Assembly: GCA_017556585.1 (NCBI GenBank)
Contig: JAFYMP010000028.1
Span: 1 to 43,947 of the forward strand
Direction of reading: 5' to 3'
DNA length: 43,947 bases
Source of the DNA: Bacteroidaceae bacterium
Lineage (GTDB): Bacteria > Bacteroidota > Bacteroidia > Bacteroidales > Bacteroidaceae
Shown: positions 374 to 3,748 of the stretch, one piece after another
Layout: every line of letters begins with the position of its first letter
Position numbering within the stretch: position 1 is the stretch's first letter
The notes under the pieces: generated by a model
What the model saw: the letters and a program-made list of their open reading frames with translations, nothing else
The model's database searches: none
Told to the model about the DNA's origin: nothing
Translations under genes and position numbers: made by a program

Positions 374-688
374 TAGTGGAACTTCTGGACAAGCTGTACT
401 GTTCGTAGTAATAGGGTTAAGTTTGCTATGGTTCCGCCGGAACAAGTTCCGGCTCCATCCCTCCTACGCCATCGGCGCAGGCACCTCCCCTTTACAGAGC
501 CATGGGTGGCTATGCCAGCAAACTTACCCTATTACTACTCTGTGGAGATGTCAAATGTATTTGAGATTTCCCTTCAATGGTACCACATTGAATGGTTGTT
601 GCATATTTTGCAACAACCGAGTTCGCCGTTTTAGTTCTGTAGGCAAACAGAGCAGCTATGAACAGCTGATTCGGAAATCCGCTATTAC
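374..688. repeat. Mosaic hairpin repeat, copy A
   Basis: The core at 405-538 (134 bp) is bounded by inverted arms, GTAGTAATAGGG(T)TAAGTTTGCT at 405-427 and its complement at 517-538. Inside are palindromes at 436-453 (GCCGGAAC AA GTTCCGGC) and 463-481. Outside the core lie hairpins at 574-591 and 594-618 (ten perfect pairs, loop TATTT). A 28-bp block at 616-643 is identical to 1562-1589. The ends (374-404 and about 646-688) are imperfect inverted copies of each other. The core is the reverse complement of 3573-3706. No credible protein is encoded here; the ORFs that cross it follow the repeat. Confidence 0.8.
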
Positions 689-1339: not shown

Positions 1340-1408
1340 TATAATTCAGTAATTATTTGTGCTGTCTTTTTGGATAGTGTGATAATTCAAAATTACTGCA
1401 AGTTTGTT

Positions 1409-1632
1409 ATAGGACTAAGTTTGCTGGCATAGCCACCCTGCCCAAGTGAGTAGTGGAAACTGAGGGACTATCTGTGAGGAGCGGAATAGCGCAGTGAACC
1501 GGAAGAACGTAAAAAAACGGCGGTGTCTGAGGTACGTTAGACAGCGTATGCTGGCTAAAAGACCGAGTTCGCCGTTTTAGTTCTGTAGGTGAACGAAGCA
1601 GCTCCGAACAGCTTGTCCCGAAGTTCCACTAC
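1409..1632. repeat. Mosaic hairpin repeat, copy C (part of core plus second structured module)
   Basis: Positions 1409-1440 match the 5' arm of the core seen in copies A and B (ATAGG-CTAAGTTTGC, then GGCATAGCCACCC), so a truncated core sits here. Next to it, 1450-1632 is a different module. Its ends are imperfect inverted repeats (GTAGTGGAAACTGAGGGAC and GTCCCGAAGTTCCACTAC). An inner stem pairs AAAACGGCG (1514-1522) with CGCCGTTTT (1570-1578), and small hairpins lie at 1525-1542 and 1542-1553. The 28-bp block at 1562-1589 is identical to copy A. The right end stops two bases before the stop codon of the ATP-grasp-like gene. Confidence 0.75.
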
Positions 1633-3572: not shown

Positions 3573-3748
3573 GTAGTAATAGGGTAAGTTTGCGGGCATA
3601 GCCACCCATGGCTTTGTAAATGGGAGGAGCCTGCGCCGAAGGCGTAGGAGGGATGGAGCAGGAACTTGTTCCTGCGAAACCATAGCAAACTTAGCCCTAT
3701 TACTACAAACAAAGCAGCTCCGAACAGCTTGTCCCTCAGCCCCACTAC
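3573..3748. repeat. Mosaic hairpin repeat, copy B (inverted relative to copy A)
   Basis: The 134-bp core 3573-3706 is bounded by GTAGTAATAGGGTAAGTTTGC (3573-3593) and AGCAAACTTAGCCCTATTACTAC (3684-3706), which pair along their length with one bulged base. Inside are three hairpins: CCCAT/ATGGG (3605-3624), CCTGCGCC-GAA-GGCGTAGG (3630-3648) and GCAGGAAC-TT-GTTCCTGC (3658-3675). The flank to 3748 (GAACAGCTTGTCCCTCAGCC) also recurs in copies A and C. It lies between the FISUMP lipoprotein gene and the TPR gene, which are transcribed away from each other. Confidence 0.8.

Follow-up and report, generated by a model that had tools for sequence, protein, structure and literature searches.

Rickettsia palindromic elements (RPE) are described in the cited passages as palindromic units of ~105-150 bp that lie between genes and also in-frame in conserved protein genes (PMC10969869, PMC2229807, PMC1950309). 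The bacterial MITEs (Correia/NEMIS, ERIC, RUP) are presented as small dispersed inverted repeats without a transposase gene (PMC2229807), and the REP/BIME units that go with RAYT proteins as GTAG-tagged units of 20-40 bp (PMC3733652).

We analysed a stretch of 43,947 nt (the window, meaning this whole stretch) from Bacteroidaceae bacterium GCA_017556585.1, contig JAFYMP010000028.1. The source genome is a draft of 2.09 Mb in 103 contigs and is 82.8% complete. The window carries two copies of a 134-bp element that is comparable to all three of these systems. Like RPE, it is small, palindromic and non-autonomous, and it occurs both intergenically and in-frame in protein genes; it is likened to them by these features alone. 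It differs from RPE, as portrayed in those passages, in being found in Bacteroidales, in having a conserved pseudoknot core under variable arms, and in using both orientations and several frames rather than encoding one conserved peptide. Like the MITEs of the cited account, it has no transposase gene and its copies in the source genome have common ends that form terminal inverted repeats. Unlike them, it has a pseudoknot core and ends that vary between species; no parent IS was found in the fetched stretches, and no target duplication could be read at the diverged or nested sites compared. With REP/BIME units, so far as the cited passages describe them, it shares GTAG ends (in the source genome), one folded strand and a position often at gene ends and sometimes within genes; however, it is longer than 100 bp, not 20-40 bp, its GTAG pairs with the far arm, and no adjoining Y1 transposase was found. 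Among openly licensed papers, we did not find such a Bacteroidales element described. Rfam searches at the gathering threshold (8 sources) gave two tRNAs only; at E up to 5 (10 sources) they gave one tRNA along with sub-gathering hits, none of which we read as this family.

Copies in the source genome and their fold

The preliminary description had reported two 134-bp copies on opposite strands, and this was confirmed. Copy B (3573..3706, plus strand) and copy A (405..538, minus strand) were 93% identical, with 9 differing positions. A search of the source genome revealed a third full copy, copy C (C56:19491-19623, 97%), so that the full copies number three; a further 11 matches were partial. 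These are mosaics in which the ends of the element (TIR1) alternate with the ends of a second palindromic type, E2, the two being mutually nested as judged by eye. A truncated core had been placed at 1409-1440; we observed it as a match at 1406..1438 (plus strand, 88%, E 4.4e-4) that contains the 5' arm and the start of the core, that is, the left part of the element. It is followed by E2 (1453..1632, plus strand), and elsewhere, by eye, E2 and the element nest within each other. E2 had 16 matches in the source genome and was present in 10/31 genus genomes, the source included. Copy B is flanked by the right arm of an E2-type element, an outer palindrome (3708..3748, plus strand, 88% to 1592-1632), and copy A by an E2-type arm (374..397, minus strand, 96% identical to a stretch of the right end of E2). 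The E2 family and E5, related to it by eye, have an inner motif near CGGCGAACTCG..AACGCCGTT; this second family was noticed at 1453-1632 and 616-667 in the window and at L377, L378, L379, L381, L384 and L387. At one further locus (L084, G000:C31), the end of a contig carries a larger repeat that includes two similar copies whose core is a variant (E3); they are ~380 bp apart, and each adjoins an E2-type end.

TIR1 has the sequence GTAGTAATAGGG. Copies A and B carry its 12-mer at each end, copy C has an exact match at one end, and 14 exact sites were seen in the source genome. When up to one mismatch was allowed, there were 34 sites, against 11 for the reversed control. Among the genus genomes, a clear excess over the reversed control was seen in the source genome only, and most other species do not have these ends.

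We then evaluated the fold. The 5' arm of B (3573..3593) pairs with the 3' arm (3685..3706), with one bulged base. In the source genome the arms start with GTAG, which pairs with the far arm and forms no local hairpin. The element had been drawn as a cloverleaf; the outer stem with its single bulge and the inner hairpins were retained, while the first hairpin is more aptly represented as one half of an H-type pseudoknot. Stem 1 (AGCC, 3600..3603, with GGCT, 3610-3613) is crossed by stem 2 (CCCAT, 3605..3609, with ATGGG, 3620-3624), and copy A has one mismatch in stem 2. Hairpin b (3630..3648) contains a near-invariant G-T pair and a GAA triloop. In hairpin c (3658..3675), the compensatory change that had been noticed was present, the pair 3660/3673 being A-T in copy B and C-G in copy A. 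All these features of B are on the plus strand. The RNA folding energies were -64.4 kcal/mol for B(+) and -66.7 kcal/mol for A(-), with z = -6.86 and -6.83 respectively, and none of the 200 dinucleotide shuffles was equally good. The opposite strands were weaker (-56.9 kcal/mol for B and -59.3 kcal/mol for A).

A covarying pseudoknot beneath variable arms

In the family, the conserved core comprises the H-type pseudoknot, hairpin b (usually with a three-base loop) and two G-rich joining stretches. Hairpin c is present in most copies, and long paired arms close the core. The core is nearly constant, and the arms vary most between loci. The new feature here is this covarying pseudoknot beneath variable arms.

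The pseudoknot could be parsed in 117/127 unique cores; the 10 left out lacked CCC at the expected place, loop-insertion variants being among them. For stem 1, two offsets were tried and the better one was counted; it was 4/4 paired in 110/117 parsed cores, while stem 2 was 5/5 paired in 116/117. The fraction paired was 0.985 for stem 1 and 0.998 for stem 2, the maxima in shuffles being 0.795 and 0.880 (500 shuffles, all lower). Stem 1 takes the forms AGCC:GGCT, GGCC:GGCC, CGCC:GGCG, CGAC:GTCG, CTGC:GCAG and GTCC:GGAC, among others. The commonest hairpin b loops in the 117 were GAA (36), AAA (17), GTA (16) and GCA (7), and insertions lengthen the pseudoknot loop of some copies (L182, L185) and hairpin b of others (L279, L371).

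Covariation was estimated on an alignment (A2) of the 48/73 candidates that share one register, a restriction through which it leans towards structure. The preliminary description had named the outcome that would speak against its element, namely no more copies or stems that change without compensation. This outcome did not occur. As seen above, a third copy was found, and in A2 94.7% of the structure cells were paired. The covariation score was 0.374; shuffling lowered it to 0.115 and sliding to no more than 0.067. At pairs 10-27 and 12-25 both sides had changed in 22 and 25 sequences, with 0 breaks. One stem-1 pair, 13-24, was broken in 12/48 sequences (register counted); the arm pair 2-97 was broken in 18/48, and hairpin c was 81.9% paired.

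A covariance-model search had also been suggested as a check. The model R1, in which stem 1 was omitted and from whose building the window copies were excluded, recovered both of them, B at 3589-3678 (72.2 bits, E 8.5e-18) and A at 433-522 (62.5 bits, E 4e-15). A second set consisted of 53 distinct R1 hits from named genomes, four other families and the source genome, some of these hits being also in the model. Here, 93.4% of the pseudoknot pairs were paired, with a score of 0.322 (0.128 shuffled); the unpaired cells included the outer stem-1 pair (9/38) and the next pair (6/40). Thus, both crossing stems of the H-type pseudoknot covary.

The distribution of the core is far wider than that of the 134-bp unit. 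The 134-mer matched 5/41 genomes, source included, and in 3 of the 5 the match was in the core alone. The unit with the ends seen in copies A and B is characteristic of the source genome and of a near relative, G003, which carries the ends (four exact TIR1 sites) and in which no full copy was matched; in other genomes the core persists under different arms. When the core of a relative, G011, was used as the query, matches were obtained in 30/37 genus genomes, source included, at up to 21 places per genome. The claim of a dispersed, MITE-like element with compensatory change is supported by this genus-wide core, by the third full copy and by the covariation. Around core matches 60 regions were fetched and 63 loci used; the core was present in 63/63, as expected from how the loci were chosen. 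The order scan found the core in 5/393 genomes from five Bacteroidales families (source included) and the phylum scan in 1/296. Both counts are lower bounds, since these scans had stricter filters; 10 and 14 candidates, respectively, were scored per listed genome. A pattern scan of named genomes gave at least 120 stretches. Among the 120 listed, mostly titled as herbivore-gut MAGs, R1 matched 96 at E 0.01: 96/97 of those titled Bacteroidales, Bacteroidia, Bacteroidaceae, Cryptobacteroides or Coprenecus, 0/21 titled as other taxa and 0/2 titled only bacterium. With the 134-mer as query, nothing in the phage and plasmid collections matched at E 1e-5, and 0/10 pattern hits in IMG/VR matched the covariance model at E 0.01.

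We also examined which strand is folded. A G-U pair in hairpin 2 had been taken as a sign of selection as RNA in one direction, and at that pair (pair 4 of hairpin b) we observed G-T in 108/115 family elements. In the arms, G-T outnumbered A-C (190 vs 49); with related elements all counted, G-T was in excess in 72 elements and A-C in 7, with 34 ties. The element strand was the more stable one in 105/111 elements with RNA parameters and in 110/111 with DNA parameters. Since both parameter sets prefer the same strand, the energies do not separate RNA from ssDNA. Copies lying antisense in genes keep the bias (arms G-T 25, A-C 7, in 10 elements), indicating that the selection is not on the mRNA of the host gene; together with the DNA parameters, this makes a folded single-stranded DNA stage equally possible. 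Of this part of the earlier claim the direction stands, the fold being favoured on one strand; action as RNA is as possible as a folded ssDNA stage.

Sites between and inside genes

Orthologous sites were found both with and without the element. Between mutS2 and nfo, G009 and G016 carry the element, G022 has it inverted, and G018 lacks it, with 9-18 bp separating the aligned flanks; other palindromes are found there in two named genomes. For comF/queA, 20 loci were fetched. The element was present in 3 (G023, which was the query, G042 and G011); the aligned flanks almost meet in 6 (G006, G018, G002, G020, G052, G004), and G013 also looks empty. The rest had E5 (6 loci) or a third palindrome type (1 locus, G008), or were undecided (3 loci). 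These empty sites represent gain or loss of the element. A target-site duplication could not be read at the filled and empty sites compared, which were too diverged or nested. In G003, the 1.8 kb around the gene adjoining copy C was without TIR1, core or E2 end; since only one flank aligned, this locus was left out of the empty sites. The gcvT-gcvH site was filled in 11 genus genomes, with closely similar arms and three core types, so some copies are old and a function is possible. Palindromes of the GGGGTCTGACCCC and GGGACAGTCCCC types (L325, L331, L383, L424, L425), which are taken to be putatively RAYT-related, occupy the same sites as the element.

No transposase was seen beside the copies among the neighbour clusters listed, which resemble housekeeping genes, and no autonomous transposon with the same ends was found in the fetched stretches (the source genome being 82.8% complete). 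At L311, two convergent frames seem, by eye, to share their last four residues, FFLK, which are coded by both arms of a single element.

The element was placed between genes in 76 cases; the 71 elements outside this count were inside frames (39), at edges (23) or far (9). The 39 element-ORF cases comprised 18 sense and 21 antisense copies, and several of these frames are likely to be spurious (the 140-aa one with window copy A and those at L192, L398 and L406). Of the in-ORF cases, 10/10 that were checked are recognised proteins. In KsgA, RsmH and AtpG the element lies within one continuous Pfam match; in the other 7 the Pfam match is split in two or the element lies between domains. Three genomes have it at approximately matching positions in TilS, in sense orientation in one and antisense in the other two. 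Intron-like excision was rejected, since in-gene copies were antisense about as often as sense.

At cobB, the element is found where the frame of four other species breaks. The frame is open in G043 and has a stop in G046, and palindromes of the GGGGTCTGACCCC and GGGACAGTCCCC types in cobB of G013 and G009 leave an open frame. We rejected an insertion into one intact cobB gene, as the first half stops after 222 aa in G002, G010, G006 and G021, where by eye the second half begins in an overlap with it. Another dispersed repeat of ~82 bp is in-frame near the end of cobB (L191, minus strand, query bases 1303-1386) and recurs genus-wide at roughly 86-96% identity.

How the element may spread

The 134-bp copies are probably a non-autonomous mobile palindromic element of several Bacteroidales families that spreads by means of its own folded strand. 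One strand would be exposed and would fold into the pseudoknot-core structure, and a protein supplied in trans would recognise this folded strand. The element would mostly be tolerated as selfish DNA, either at the ends of genes or as a linker in frame, as has been described for Rickettsia palindromic elements. Against a mobile element are the lack of a readable target duplication and of a transposase beside the copies, and the arms being the most variable parts, since in a classical MITE the arms would be the transposase-binding ends. The old copies at gcvT-gcvH may have a function, the cobB copy in G046 ends the frame, and the broken stem-1 pair in A2, the incompletely paired hairpin c and the restriction of a clear TIR1 excess to the source genome also count against it.

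It appears unlikely that the element is REP/BIME-like and that the RAYT-like Y1 transposases encoded in these genomes mobilise it as folded ssDNA. Y1_Tnp hits, putative RAYTs, were present in 21/31 genus genomes, the arms of the source genome start with GTAG, folding of one strand fits ssDNA, and the putative RAYT-related palindromes fill the same sites in other species. However, no Y1_Tnp hit was obtained in the source genome or G003 (both incomplete assemblies), and 30 Y1_Tnp loci, taken with up to ~1.5 kb per side, gave two weak pattern hits that were unlike the core. The REP/RAYT assignment thus fails on two counts, the 134-bp unit with its GTAG pairing to the far arm and the lack of a recognisable core at these loci. 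A functional structured RNA, a 3'-end or processing element selected at gene ends and not selfish DNA, seems quite unlikely to us. Pseudoknot loops of 1, 0 and 4-6 nt suit RNA, as expected from established geometry. With orthologues included, 20 of the 76 placed copies lie between convergent genes vs 4 between divergent ones, and in 51/76 (p 0.004) the element and the upstream gene share a strand; the filled gcvT-gcvH site also fits. But only 31/52 copies in co-directional gene pairs are sense (orthologues included), and the orientation flips at mutS2/nfo, so that a cis-regulatory RNA read with its neighbours, one of the earlier suggestions, was not upheld. The empty orthologous sites, the strand bias kept antisense in genes, and copy B lying between divergent frames similarly argue against a structured RNA. 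A counterpart of SINEs or a ribozyme-like parasite, in which the pseudoknotted RNA or folded ssDNA core would itself serve as substrate for an enzyme of the host or of a phage and be copied into gene ends and open frames order-wide, with the arms re-made per site, we consider improbable. Very doubtful, finally, is quasipalindrome template switching, and not selection on the fold, as what maintains the complementarity of the stems. Although specific to each locus, the arms show complementarity with a median length of 30 columns in 113/117 elements (some arm calls being visibly wrong, as for window copy B, L251, L288 and L353), and template switching may act on them nonetheless. It should, however, erase the G-T pair of hairpin b and give no excess of G-T over A-C.

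For the mobile palindromic element that we favour, the strongly covarying pseudoknot makes structure-based mobility accessible to evolutionary tests and to assays. In the passages cited, Rickettsia is the best-known setting of in-frame palindromic elements, and here an abundant family occurs in gut Bacteroidales. The in-frame inserts lengthen housekeeping proteins in metagenome-derived genomes, where they could pass for domains.
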